Shown piece by piece: positions 5,619 to 51,706 of a stretch of 64,000 nt of DNA. A model generated the notes under the pieces. That model made no database searches. It was given only the letters and a program-made list of their open reading frames with translations, and was not told the origin of the DNA. A program made the position numbers and the translations under genes. The first letter of the stretch is position 1; each line of letters starts with the position of its first letter. The stretch is from an uncultured Caryophanales bacterium (GTDB lineage: Bacteria > Bacillota_I > Bacilli_A > RFN20 > CAG-449): positions 139,897 through 203,896 of the forward strand of contig CAMCEE010000001.1 of assembly GCA_945873815.1 (NCBI GenBank), in the 5' to 3' direction.

Positions 5619-5635
5619 TTAATTTTAAAGCTCCA

Positions 5636-5765
5636 ATATACCATAGACAGCAACGGTCAAGGGACTTAATAATGTTGCCGAGGTAACTATTTCACATAAA
5701 TTTTAAGTAAAACGTGATAGGAAAACTCTGTATATTGTTGCCTATACAAAACTAACAAACAACAA
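5636..5765 (+). promoter_or_regulatory. L10 (rplJL) ribosomal protein leader
   Basis: The leader contains ACCATAGACAGCAACGG and, after a loop, AATGTTGCCGAGGTAAC. This matches the conserved L10 leader pattern of Gram-positive rplJL mRNAs: AGACAGCA paired with TGTTGCCGAGGT around an internal kink-turn-like loop. The L10-(L12) complex binds this structure to repress its own synthesis. The strand CAGCAAC pairs with GTTGCCG. Confidence 0.85.
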
Positions 5766-19919: not shown

Positions 19920-20010
19920 AACAGCGGACGCGTTAGAAAACCGCCACTACGTGTTCGTCCTTCTCTTTCTTCCTCAAAGAAGGCACTTAACGCTTTCTAA
20001 CTACTCTGTT
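19920..20010 (-). promoter_or_regulatory. Tetrahydrofolate (THF, class I) riboswitch aptamer
   Basis: On the minus strand the RNA has AGAGUAG, then GCGUUAAGUG, then GACGAAC, then GCGGU, then GUCCG. These are the conserved blocks of the THF riboswitch. The closing helix AACAG:CUGUU and the helix UUAGAAA:UUUCUAA both form while differing in sequence from the published examples. It lies 45 bases upstream of the FolT-fusion start, the usual partner of this class. Confidence 0.9.
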
Positions 20011-37048: not shown

Positions 37049-37077
37049 TCCTTTCCGCCTAGATACGCTAAAAAGGA
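37049..37077 (-). promoter_or_regulatory. Expression-platform hairpin of the TPP riboswitch
   Basis: On the minus strand UCCUUU pairs with AAAGGA, and seven U then lead to the AUG. The 3' arm is the ribosome-binding site, so the hairpin could block translation and may also act as a weak terminator. The 17-base loop contains UAGCGUA and UCUAGG, which repeat short pieces of the aptamer. Confidence 0.65.
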
Positions 37078-37091
37078 AAAAAATCATATAA

Positions 37092-37175
37092 TCCTTACGC
37101 TAGCATTACCTAGATCAAGTTTGGTCGATTCTAGTATCAAGAATCCTCTCAGCCCATTTCTTGAGCTCCCAAGAA
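37092..37175 (-). promoter_or_regulatory. TPP riboswitch aptamer (THI element)
   Basis: On the minus strand the RNA contains GGGCUGAGAGGA, then AAACUUGAUCUAGGUAAUGC, then UAGCGUAAGGA. These match the THI-box landmarks CUGAGA and the ACCUGAUC-x-GGUAAUGCCAGCGUAGGGA block. The closing helix is UCUU with AAGGA. It lies 51 bases upstream of thiT. Confidence 0.95.
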
Positions 37176-37224
37176 TTATTATAATCATTTTAAGAAATAA
37201 TGCTATAAAAAAATGATATTTTAT

Positions 37225-46485: not shown

Positions 46486-47010
46486 TTGGTATCCTCACGT
46501 TACTATTCGCCTGAATTATGTAGATGGATTTTGCCAGATTCAATCGAATATTTAGAACCAAAAAATATTAATGGGTTGAATTCATACTGTTATTGCAACA
46601 ATAATCCGATTATGTACGTCGATCCTAGTGGACACTTTGATATTACTGCAACAATGATATGGGCTGTAATTGGTGCAGCTATAGGGTTTGGAGCTGCTTA
46701 TATTCCTGATGTTATTGAAAATGTTAAAGCCGACGGATTTCAATGGAGTGATTTAAATACTTTTGAAGGCAATTGGCAACATTATATCGGAGCGACTTTG
46801 GGTGGAGCTGAAGCAGGTGCTAATGCAATCAGTGGTATGCTAACATTTACAGGAGCAATGGTTGGTGGAATTATGGGGGTTAAAGTTCTAGGAGCTGAAT
46901 TTTCATTCAAAAACTTTGCGTTATATCATCTTGGTGCAGCATACTTTGGAATTTATTCAATAAAGATTATTCTTGCTTATATTAAGAAAAAACTTAAGGA
47001 GAGATATTAA
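46486..47010 (+). pseudogene. Orphan Rhs tip: RHS core end plus C-terminal (toxin-like) domain, lacking the N-terminus
   Basis: The frame is open directly from a TAG at 46477-46479 and has no ATG start. Its first residues are the end of an RHS repeat-associated core: SSRYYSPELCRWILPDS, then NGLNSYCYCNNNPIMYVDPSGH. After the core junction a glycine/alanine-rich hydrophobic domain of about 125 residues follows (IWAVIGAAIGFGAAYIPDVI; GATLGGAEAGANAISGML). In complete Rhs proteins this variable end is the toxin. The large N-terminal shell is missing, so this is either a silent recombination cassette or a decayed gene. The next gene starts on its last base. Confidence 0.75.
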
Positions 47011-48975: not shown

Positions 48976-49413
48976 ATGATTATTCGACAAGCAAATATAG
49001 ATGATATTTTGAATATTGTAAATCTTGAAAAAGAAAATTTCATCTCTCCATGGACGGAAGAACAATATAGATACGAAATAAAAGAGAATGAGTTTTCTAA
49101 AACATTAGTAGTGTATGATGGTGATACCTTAGTTGGATATTTGAACTATTGGTTAATATTCGATAGAGGGGAGATTAACAAGATTTGCATAAATGATAAA
49201 TATAGAAGAAAAGGATATGCTAAAGAACTATTAGATATCGCATTTAAAGATTTTGAAGAAAAGGAATGTTTATCAGTTAGTCTAGAAGTTAGAGTATCCA
49301 ATATAGGCGCACAAAAATTGTATGAAAGTTATGGATTTCAAGTGGTAGTAATAAAAGAAGCATATTACTCGGATGGAGAAGATGCAAAATATATGATTAG
49401 AGGTGTATTTTAA
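48976..49413 (+). CDS. rimI: Ribosomal protein S18-alanine N-acetyltransferase RimI-like (GNAT)
   Basis: This 145-residue GNAT acetyltransferase has the acetyl-CoA pyrophosphate-binding motif YRRKGYAKELL near residues 75-85. The later SLEVRVSNIGAQKLYESYGF block is the RimI-typical end (quoted as VRVSNIGAQKLYESYGF). It lies between tsaB and tsaD, the classic Firmicutes arrangement, and its stop overlaps the tsaD start. Confidence 0.92.
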   Translation: MIIRQANIDDILNIVNLEKENFISPWTEEQYRYEIKENEFSKTLVVYDGDTLVGYLNYWLIFDRGEINKICINDKYRRKGYAKELLDIAFKDFEEKECLSVSLEVRVSNIGAQKLYESYGFQVVVIKEAYYSDGEDAKYMIRGVF

Positions 49414-50432
49414 TGGCAGATAAAATTATTTTAGGAATAGAATCAAGTTGTGATGAAACTGCAATATCAATATTAAAAAACGATACTGAACTTTTAGCAA
49501 ATGTTGTTTCTACTCAGATTGCAGTACATAAAAAATATGGTGGAGTTATGCCAGAAATCGCTTCTAGACTTCATGTTGAAAATATTGGTGTAGTTTTGAA
49601 AGAAGCGCTTGATACTGCAGGAATAACAATGGAAGAAGTTTCTGCGATTGCAGTTACTTCTGGACCTGGATTAATAGGTGCTTTACACGTTGGATTACAA
49701 TGTGCGAAAACTTTAGCATTAATGTATCATAAGCCACTTATTCCAGTCCATCATTTATCGGGTCACATATATGCAAATGAATACGTTAAACCATTAGTTT
49801 TTCCTTGTTTATGCATTGTTGTTTCAGGTGGTAATACAGAATTAGTAGTTATGGATAAGCATCTCTCATTTAATGTCATTGGTGAAACTAGAGATGATGC
49901 AATCGGTGAAGCTTTCGATAAAGTTGCTAGAGTTGTTGGCTTATCTTATCCTGGAGGAGTTTCTATTGATAGATTATCGAAAGAAGGTAAACATACTTAT
50001 AATTTACCTCGTCCATTAAATGATCATACATATGATTATTCATATTCTGGAATTAAAACTGCAGTAATTAATTTAGTAAATAAATTAAAGCAAAAAGGGG
50101 AGGAAGTTAATGTACCAGATCTAGCTAGATCTTTCCAAGATACTGCGATTGATTTACTTCTAGATAAAGCTTTACCTGCAGTGGATGAATATAATATTAA
50201 GCAAGTGGTTCTTGCAGGAGGAGTTTCAGCTAATTCTTATCTAAGAGAACAAGTAGTAAAAAGATTGGAAAATAAGCCTGTTGATGTAGTTATTCCTCCG
50301 ATTTGGTGTACGACCGATAATGCAGCGATGATTGCAAAGGTTGGTTCGTATTTGTATGATGAAAAGGTTTTTGCTCCATTATCTCTTAGCGCAAATCCTT
50401 GTTGGAAAATTGAAGATTATAGAAAATTCTAA
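49413..50432 (+). CDS. tsaD: tRNA N6-adenosine threonylcarbamoyltransferase TsaD
   Basis: TsaD transfers threonylcarbamoyl to A37 of ANN-decoding tRNAs. Motifs: LGIESSCDETAISIL near residues 7-21, the metal-binding HHLSGHIYAN near 114-123 (H-x-x-x-H), SGGNTELV near 138-145, and LAGGVSANSYLRE near 267-279. The length of 339 residues is normal. A Mn2+-type riboswitch unit follows about 25 bases later. Confidence 0.97.
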   Translation: MADKIILGIESSCDETAISILKNDTELLANVVSTQIAVHKKYGGVMPEIASRLHVENIGVVLKEALDTAGITMEEVSAIAVTSGPGLIGALHVGLQCAKTLALMYHKPLIPVHHLSGHIYANEYVKPLVFPCLCIVVSGGNTELVVMDKHLSFNVIGETRDDAIGEAFDKVARVVGLSYPGGVSIDRLSKEGKHTYNLPRPLNDHTYDYSYSGIKTAVINLVNKLKQKGEEVNVPDLARSFQDTAIDLLLDKALPAVDEYNIKQVVLAGGVSANSYLREQVVKRLENKPVDVVIPPIWCTTDNAAMIAKVGSYLYDEKVFAPLSLSANPCWKIEDYRKF

Positions 50433-50456: not shown

Positions 50457-50485
50457 TTGACATTTCAATAACTTAGTGCTATATT
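50457..50485 (+). promoter_or_regulatory. Promoter of the Mn2+ riboswitch/SPFH transcript
   Basis: TTGACA (50457-50462) and TATATT (50480-50485) have 17-base spacing. Transcription would begin a few bases before the riboswitch. Confidence 0.8.
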
Positions 50486-50492
50486 ATATTTG

Positions 50493-50580
50493 TAATGAGG
50501 AGTAGCATACTCGGCTAAATATCGTCAGCACATTTATTTAAATCGGTATTAGCAATCCAAAAGATTTTGCAAGATCATTA
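50493..50580 (+). promoter_or_regulatory. yybP-ykoY (Mn2+-sensing) riboswitch aptamer
   Basis: The RNA contains GAGGAGUAGC, then AUCGUCAGCACA, then AUCGG, then UUUUGCAAGAUCA. These correspond in order to GGGGAGUAGC, UCGUCA, CGG and AGCAAGACC of the characterised Lactococcus lactis element. The outer helix P1 can form between UAAUGA (50493-50498) and UCAUUA (50575-50580). The 3' strand of P1 is also part of the terminator that follows. Confidence 0.85.
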
Positions 50581-50612
50581 ACGTATTTGTTGATGGTCTT
50601 TTATTTTTGGTC
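50571..50612 (+). terminator. Regulated terminator of the Mn2+ riboswitch
   Basis: AAGATCATTAAC pairs with GTTGATGGTCTT over twelve positions including G-T pairs, followed by TTATTTTT. Because UCAUUA is shared with aptamer helix P1, metal binding should prevent the terminator and turn the downstream gene on, the logic known for this class. Confidence 0.88.
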
Positions 50613-50643
50613 ATCAATGGTAATTAATAAGGAGGAAAGATAT

Positions 50644-51669
50644 ATGAGTGTATTAATTACATCAATAGTACTATTTGTCGTCAGCGCACTAGTACTTACA
50701 ATTATTGCTGTTATATTAGATAAGAAAGGAATGACATGCGTAAAAGGTGGTAAGACATATTATGAAAAGAGTAGGAAAGGATATAAATTCATTCCTTTTT
50801 CACTTCTTTCATTTGTAATTATCTTATTTGCTTCATTTACTACAATCCCAGCAAATAGCGTTGGCATTATCTATGATGAGGTCCAAGGCGGTGTACAAGA
50901 AAGAACATATAACGAAGGATTTCACACAAAAAGTGTATTTGAGCATATAACTACTATTTCGACTGCAAACCGTTCTGCATTAGTTAGAACAACAGGCCAA
51001 ACAAATGATGGACAATATGCAACATTCGAATTATCAATAATCTATAAGATAAAAAAAGAAGATGCGGGTAAATTCTATAAAGTTGCAAACGATAGTGATA
51101 TTCCTCAAGATGCACTAGATACAATTATCAAATCCTCTCTTCAAAGTTCAACAATTAAATTCAATATTTTTGAACTATTATCAACAGAACTAGAGAATGC
51201 TAGAATTGATTTCAAAAATGACTTAGAAAAAGCATTATATGAGAACTATAGCATTACTTTAGTAGATGTTGCATTTGATGATTTAGATGGTGGCGAAGAA
51301 GTTGAAGCAATTTTACAAAAAAGTGCAAAGGCACAACAAGAAATCGATATTGCAAAACTTGAAGCGGAAGCAAATCTTATTACTGCAAATAACGAATCTG
51401 AAGTAAAAAAGATTCTTGCAGATGCATCTGCTTATGCAATTACTCAAGAAGGTGAAGCACAAGGTATGGCTGCGAATGCATATGTCAACAACATCGTTAA
51501 AATGATTGATGGATTATATGAAAATATGCAAGGAACATTAACTTATGAACAATGTTCTTCAATGGTTCTTTCAATCGTATTCTATGATTCATGGAATGGT
51601 GAACTTCCAGAAGTTCTTACGAGTGATTCATTATCTAGTATGATTGGCTCGTTAATTAAAACAGCATAA
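50644..51669 (+). CDS. SPFH/Band 7 (prohibitin-like) membrane protein
   Basis: This is a 341-residue SPFH-domain protein. Two N-terminal membrane spans (about residues 3-25 and 54-75) flank a short lysine-rich loop. The SPFH domain begins IPANSVGIIYDEVQGG near 78-93. A charged coiled-coil region follows (KSAKAQQEIDIAKLEAEANL, then ESEVKKILADASAYAITQEGEAQG), the flotillin/prohibitin pattern of alanine- and glutamate-rich helices. The ATG at 50644 has AAGGAGG upstream; the ATG at 50587 lies inside the riboswitch terminator. SPFH proteins scaffold membrane protease or microdomain complexes. Control by a Mn2+ riboswitch suggests a role in metal or membrane stress, which is inference. Confidence 0.9.
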   Translation: MSVLITSIVLFVVSALVLTIIAVILDKKGMTCVKGGKTYYEKSRKGYKFIPFSLLSFVIILFASFTTIPANSVGIIYDEVQGGVQERTYNEGFHTKSVFEHITTISTANRSALVRTTGQTNDGQYATFELSIIYKIKKEDAGKFYKVANDSDIPQDALDTIIKSSLQSSTIKFNIFELLSTELENARIDFKNDLEKALYENYSITLVDVAFDDLDGGEEVEAILQKSAKAQQEIDIAKLEAEANLITANNESEVKKILADASAYAITQEGEAQGMAANAYVNNIVKMIDGLYENMQGTLTYEQCSSMVLSIVFYDSWNGELPEVLTSDSLSSMIGSLIKTA

Positions 51670-51676
51670 TGATGAG

Positions 51677-51706
51677 GCAAGAGCTTTAGTGCTCTTGCTT
51701 TATTTT
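51677..51706 (+). terminator. Intrinsic terminator after the SPFH gene
   Basis: GCAAGAGC and GCTCTTGC flank a six-base loop and are followed by TTTATTTT. Confidence 0.9.

Follow-up and report, generated by a model that had tools for sequence, protein, structure and literature searches.

Locus and transcription unit

The window analysed here is a stretch of 64,000 nucleotides from the genome of an uncultured Caryophanales bacterium. A leader sits between tsaD (49413-50432), the upstream neighbour, and a gene for an SPFH-domain protein, and the transcription unit is laid out as follows.

50457-50485, + strand: sigma-70-type promoter, TTGACA-17-TATATT with TG before the -10 element (11 of 12 consensus matches)
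50493-50580, + strand: candidate yybP-ykoY-type (Mn2+) aptamer, compact, without helix P2 (covariation; 92.5 bits against our covariance model R2, whose training set includes this leader)
50571-50608, + strand: intrinsic terminator, 50571-50600 plus U tract (13 pairs; overlap layout at 17 of 17 SPFH loci)
50630-50635, + strand: ribosome-binding site AGGAGG (read from the sequence)
50644-51669, + strand: SPFH (Band_7) gene, 341 amino acids, ATG at 50644 after AGGAGG (Pfam, NCBIfam, PDB profile)
51671-51704, + strand: second terminator, which ends the transcription unit (terminator prediction)

The aptamer begins (50493) at the predicted transcript start of the promoter, and the leader folds better than shuffled sequences (z -3.0). 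Promoter-like sites are not enriched as a kind (8 against a shuffle mean of 9.1). Upstream of 17 SPFH leaders, which include those of related genomes described below, the best promoter sites have 8 to 11 of 12 matches, and the distance from promoter end to aptamer match is 6 to 8 nt in 14 of the 17 (16 nt at L047 and L048, 39 nt at L049). Because the gene's own terminator comes next, the SPFH gene is monocistronic. The original prediction had described a near-consensus promoter and, as the only gene before the next terminator, a two-span SPFH protein, and all of these elements are in place.

The product of 50644-51669 matches Pfam Band_7 with an E-value of 8e-22 (78.6 bits against a cut-off of 23.6) and has two hydrophobic segments at its N-terminus. 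A profile of the protein compared with PDB matched a prohibitin chain (9urz_B, 2.7e-19) and HflK (about 1e-9), while its scores against the NCBIfam HflK equivalog models stayed below the cut-offs (35.7 against 660 and 32.2 against 159.4 bits). Judged by these profiles, the protein is prohibitin/HflK-like. Prohibitins and HflK build membrane cages around or beside FtsH.

Elsewhere in the window, three further RNA elements score above their Rfam cut-offs: a THF riboswitch at 19920-20010 (- strand), a TPP riboswitch at 37075-37182 (- strand) and an L10 leader at 5623-5745 (+ strand). By eye, the start of the ORF at 46486-47010 (+ strand) resembles the tail of an Rhs/YD-repeat protein (SSRYYSPELCRWILPDSIEYL..).

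Aptamer fold and conserved core

Searched at the DNA level, 58 related genomes yielded more copies of the leader, two of them in the host genome and some before SPFH genes in other genera. Nine leaders were aligned using helices P1.1, P1.2, P3.1, P3.2 and P4 as they occur in the solved riboswitches. The elements of the window leader are given below.

50494-50498, + strand: P1.1 5' strand, partner 50575-50579 (helix 1, covariation in nine leaders)
50499-50504, + strand: L1 5' strand GGAGUA, equivalent to G8, G9 and A10 of the solved riboswitches (GGAGTAG in 71 of 71 rows; compared with the available part of PMC6754395)
50505-50507, + strand: P1.2 5' strand GCN, partner 50568-50570 (helix 2, covariation in nine leaders)
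50508-50513, + strand: linker UACUCG, complementary to the L1 5' strand (sequence comparison, energy model)
50514-50553, + strand: P3 arm, with P3.1 (50514-50524 paired with 50544-50553), L3 UCAGCAC (50525-50531) and P3.2 (helices 3 and 4)
50554-50566, + strand: P4 hairpin AAUC/GAUU (helix 5, covariation in nine and in 71 leaders)

All five helices of the yybP-ykoY class that were used for the alignment are present in the window leader. In the nine-leader alignment, 95.5% of cells are paired and both sides have changed in 12 of 25 pairs; the third pair of P1.2 alone occurs as four pair types. Covariation scores 0.466 here, shuffled alignments average 0.168 and none of 500 shuffles gets as high as 0.466; the signal is lost when the pairing partners are slid. 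A larger alignment of 71 leaders (A3), which was fitted to the structure of R2, has 95.0% of cells paired and a covariation score of 0.711 against 0.195 when shuffled.

The residues that matter in the solved riboswitches are constant in these leaders. There, the docking motif is formed by the L1 residues G8, G9, A10, G93 and A94, and an adenosine in L3 senses the metal, in L. lactis within UCA41AUUC and in X. oryzae within ACA48UACU (PMC6754395, available part). GGAGUAG on the 5' side of L1 is present in all 71 rows, and the 3' strand of L1 always ends in AGA, as CAAGA in 53, CGAGA in 16 and CCAGA in 2. The L3 adenosine motif C[GA][UA]CA is likewise found in 71 of 71 rows; in the window it is represented by UCA at 50525-50527, where A50527 corresponds to the Mn-sensing A41/A48 as described in the portion of PMC6754395 that was available.

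Helix P2, which would complete a four-way junction, is absent from the window leader. We do not regard this as a bar to class membership, since E. coli alx also lacks P2 (by eye) and the Streptococcus mgtA aptamer is reported to have a three-way junction. A first consensus fold (model R1) had a GAGUA/UACUC hairpin in the place of P1.2. It was dropped in favour of P1.2 because a base in its loop covaries with the one that precedes the 3' GC. The hairpin itself, with 4 or 5 pairs, can be drawn at 6 of 8 SPFH type B leaders, 3 of 8 type A leaders, the 1 flotillin leader considered, 4 of 4 leaders of histidine-rich proteins, 2 of 3 leaders with other or undetermined targets and 9 of the remaining 47, and the UACUCG linker is conserved in one leader subgroup only. 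In that subgroup, the linker may form an anti-aptamer hairpin with the 5' strand of L1, as a built-in competitor.

RF00080 and class membership

The original prediction had assigned the leader to the Mn2+-type (yybP-ykoY) class on visible landmarks, and had named a match to the Rfam model RF00080 as the check and a missing match as counter-evidence. Taken literally, the outcome goes against it. RF00080 gave no match at its gathering score across the 64-kb window, none on the leader alone at E up to 10, and over the host genome only an 8-bit chance match located elsewhere; no Rfam family scored above threshold on the leader. The same model missed the control riboswitch of E. coli alx (E up to 5) and gave E. 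coli mntP a score of 44.9, just short of its cut-off of 45. Both alx and mntP of E. coli are reported as Mn-sensing (PMC9603457, available part). Because RF00080 misses alx, its failure here is not diagnostic for this leader subtype.

The landmarks themselves proved to be real when a new covariance model was used in place of RF00080. This model, R3, was built from the 71 R2-matched leaders and includes no E. coli sequence. With E-values that are rough for both of our models, R3 detects the E. coli leaders of mntP (2.1e-7) and alx (7.7e-5), whereas R2 gives no match to alx and reaches only 0.067 on mntP. R2 recovers 4 of 9 loci derived from RF00080 at 5e-5 or better; L057, which later entered A3, is one of them. 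The matches of R3 to the E. coli leaders, together with the covariation, support the predicted assignment of the leader to the yybP-ykoY (Mn2+) riboswitches, as a compact form. The class is under-annotated: the current RF00080 overlooks many members, and the gene contexts of these members have therefore not been surveyed.

Genes behind the leaders

Matches to R2 occur in 10 of 18 genomes of the host family, in 44 of 279 from the order and, in a sample of the class, in 38 of 395. After removal of L077, which occupies the same place as L104, 70 of 71 loci were kept for the gene count. Their targets are 41 P-type ATPases, 17 SPFH genes, 4 genes for histidine-rich miniproteins, 2 Na-pump decarboxylase beta subunits, 1 Na/Ca-exchanger-like gene, 1 ArsB/NhaD-like permease, 3 small ORFs or genes without a family (L041, L070 and L123) and 1 without an assignment (L043). 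This sample is biased toward SPFH, since most of the leaders that went into R2 precede SPFH genes. R3 added 92 loci from a phylum sample (94 less L212, at the same place as L176, and L254, which is cut off): 70 P-type ATPases, 15 Na/Ca-exchanger-like genes, 1 flotillin (Pfam) and 6 others. At G002:C25 the contig end hides the target of the leader.

The host genome has four copies of the leader. One is that of the window and one (C1:90652) precedes a flotillin of 497 amino acids, which scores above the Pfam Flot cut-off and at 281 bits against NCBIfam FloT (equivalog cut-off 700). The copy at C3:65859-65938 precedes a P-type cation ATPase (Pfam E1-E2_ATPase), and the copy at C5:5074 a 63-amino-acid ORF without a family (L041:2211-2399, + strand), followed by a gene with a Gly_transporter domain.

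Several less common targets were also seen. In four genomes of the related genus g29, a leader of the window's subgroup (AGUGAGGAGUAGCUUACU..) lies upstream of genes for proteins of 54 to 63 amino acids that have a single hydrophobic span and an N-terminus rich in histidine, such as MFFFHHHHHGFFHHCHHWHPFFF... (L103:2807-2968, - strand; L088:1281-1442, - strand; L089:1253-1441, - strand; L090:1652-1819, + strand). These histidine-rich miniproteins are apparently a new target of Mn riboswitches. The Na-pump decarboxylase beta genes, an unusual target behind Mn-type leaders, are L119:374-1474 (- strand, TIGR01109) and L126:1610-2716 (+ strand, similar by eye). CNNM/CorC-type transporter genes follow the leader at L213:289-1611 (- strand) and, by similarity to L213, at L226 and L232, and a Na/Pi-cotransporter gene does so at L209:3-1553 (- strand). 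In genome G007, L070:1-1491 (- strand) encodes a protein of at least 497 amino acids with no Pfam match; its leader has a ribosome-binding site right after P1.1 and no terminator.

Recurrent pairing with SPFH genes

The original prediction had proposed a search for SPFH genes behind such leaders in related genomes, and 18 of these loci were found, 17 among the 70 R2 loci and 1 among the 92 R3 loci. They come from 17 genomes in three families (f1, f4 and f27) and comprise 8 genes of type A, which are like that of the window, 8 of type B, which is about 20% identical to type A, and 2 FloT-like flotillins. The terminator was examined at 17 of the 18 loci (all except the second flotillin locus, L247), and at 17 of 17 an intrinsic terminator begins in the 3' strand of L1 or P1.1. 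The overlapping sequences differ among these loci, yet both pairings are kept. In the window, the 5' arm of the terminator (50571-50600) contains the P1.1 3' strand UCAUU and also shares the L1 3' strand. The predicted metal-ON layout, with a terminator arm shared with P1, is thus a feature common to the 17 loci.

In the host family, which has 35 Band_7 matches, 30 loci were examined and 9 SPFH loci carry the leader: 3 of 3 of type A, 5 of 6 of type B and 1 of 2 flotillins. The sixth type B gene, in G002, is only 84 nt away from the end of its contig, which leaves too little sequence to judge, and the flotillin of G002 has no leader. No leader precedes any of the 19 other Band_7 loci examined in the host family, and chance is rejected as the source of the pairing. 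Synteny is also rejected: the neighbouring genes change from genus to genus, and SPFH is often followed by a convergent or unrelated gene.

How far does the pairing extend? Among type A relatives in named genomes, which are Bacillales-labelled MAGs and Anaeroplasmataceae, 8 of 10 have the leader; the two without it are 28% identical, and one of them begins at a contig edge. A universal link with type B was considered and discarded: of 296 genomes sampled from the class, 5 have type B relatives, and the leader is found only in the two from the host family. The type B relatives of G411, G178 and G429 have no leader. In the full texts searched, we found no report of a yybP-ykoY or manganese riboswitch with an SPFH, flotillin or stomatin gene, though an entry in the gene tables of the two 2015 founding papers or the Streptococcus paper is possible.

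Mechanism, ligand and alternative readings

Computation establishes the homology to proven Mn2+ riboswitches, the conservation of the fold and of the residues that bind the ligand there, the P1.1 strand that overlaps the terminator, and the recurrent SPFH target. Mn2+ is taken as the probable ligand on the strength of these conserved residues and of the cation exporter genes that lie behind sister leaders, and it would switch read-through into the SPFH gene. In L. lactis and X. oryzae, P1.1 is stabilised by Mn2+ and the terminator is thereby prevented, according to the available parts of PMC11087558 and PMC6754395. The strands of the window leader overlap likewise. By the same scheme, nascent RNA would fold the terminator when metal is lacking, leaving the SPFH gene off. 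At excess Mn2+ (or Mn2+/Ca2+), L1 would dock with L3, and P1.1 would sequester the strand that otherwise begins the terminator. The SPFH gene would then be read through, alongside the cell's riboswitch-controlled P-type ATPase. In the nearest-neighbour energy model, the GAGUA/UACUC hairpin plus terminator reaches -24.9 kcal/mol, and the fold obtained when the aptamer helices are imposed only -11.1 kcal/mol. The calculated ligand-free state is thus the terminated one, so that the default would be off and metal should turn the gene on; such a ground state is expected of a ligand-dependent switch and is not proof of one. Overall, we hold it to be very probable that a compact yybP-ykoY (Mn2+) riboswitch controls the single SPFH gene by transcription antitermination.

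An aptamer of the same fold could be tuned to another cation, e.g., Ca2+, in which case the SPFH gene would answer calcium or general divalent-ion stress. The leaders often precede Na/Ca exchangers and P-type ATPases of the Ca type, and the three-way-junction aptamer of Streptococcus mgtA, according to the available part of a review, has a higher affinity for Ca2+ than for Mn2+, although Mn2+ is the stronger activator of transcription. The L1/L3 core of the SPFH leaders is nevertheless that of the ATPase leaders and of proven Mn riboswitches, and we consider a different cation unlikely. Much less probable still is the reading that the leader has decayed or been repurposed, no longer senses anything and serves solely as a constitutive attenuator or terminator. 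The terminated fold favoured by the energy model and the missing RF00080 match would fit such a leader, but the compensatory changes in P1.1, P1.2, P3.1, P3.2 and P4 and the constant core residues imply selection on the aptamer itself, and the overlapping switch has been kept at 17 of 17 SPFH loci. The least probable reading, another kind of leader (a metabolite riboswitch or protein-binding leader) with a chance likeness to yybP-ykoY, agrees with the lack of an Rfam family above threshold but is disfavoured by the detection of E. coli mntP and alx with R3 and by the mntP, Na/Ca-exchanger and P-type ATPase genes behind sister leaders.

If the leader is the Mn2+ riboswitch that we favour, what would the SPFH protein do? 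More speculatively, under Mn stress it might protect the membrane or guide an FtsH-type quality control of transporters. In B. subtilis, high Mn2+ with low Mg2+ triggers degradation of MgtE by YqgP/FtsH, and YqgP works with FtsH in Mn/Zn stress (PMC7231995, available part); the tabulated interaction partners of TerC proteins there include FloT, FloA and FtsH (PMC10246235, available part). These data, together with the prohibitin/HflK likeness, lead us to favour a role in membrane quality control or in the scaffolding of transporters under Mn stress, which we put forward tentatively, at clearly less than even chances.

Implications

To our knowledge, the physiological signals that control bacterial SPFH scaffolds are poorly known. 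A metal-sensing RNA before three SPFH types would give a direct and testable one, excess Mn2+, and such a signal fits the B. subtilis observations on YqgP/FtsH (PMC7231995) and on TerC partners (PMC10246235), as far as these sources were available. The pairing suggests membrane reorganisation or quality control at excess manganese in these little-known gut bacteria. A broader reading, to which we give even chances, is that Mn2+ riboswitches in several families of a single Gram-positive-type class govern a regulon that has a membrane arm, where the exporter is joined by SPFH scaffolds (flotillins and the prohibitin/HflK-like types A and B) and, within one genus, by histidine-rich single-span miniproteins. 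If this is true, membrane scaffolding or proteolysis and small metal-binding membrane peptides would be direct parts of manganese detoxification.

Comparison with known systems

The window protein shares the Band_7 domain with HflK/HflC and prohibitins, which are modulators of the FtsH protease. Unlike HflK/HflC, it is encoded by a single monocistronic gene with no hflK-hflC pair, and it falls far below the HflK equivalog cut-off. The second SPFH protein of the host behind such a leader (C1:90652) is FloT-like, and it differs from FloT in its score below the equivalog cut-off and in the Mn-type riboswitch upstream. The leader departs from the yybP-ykoY class (RF00080) in the absence of P2, in its score below RF00080, in its SPFH target and, in one subgroup, in the UACUC linker complementary to L1. 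It shares with the class, as represented by E. coli mntP/alx, L. lactis, X. oryzae and Streptococcus mgtA, the arrangement of P1.1/L1/P1.2, P3.1/L3/P3.2 and P4, the GGAGUAG and (C)AAGA motifs of L1, and the terminator that competes with P1.1; with L. lactis in particular it shares the UCA of L3 (L. lactis UCA41AUUC, from the available part of the source).
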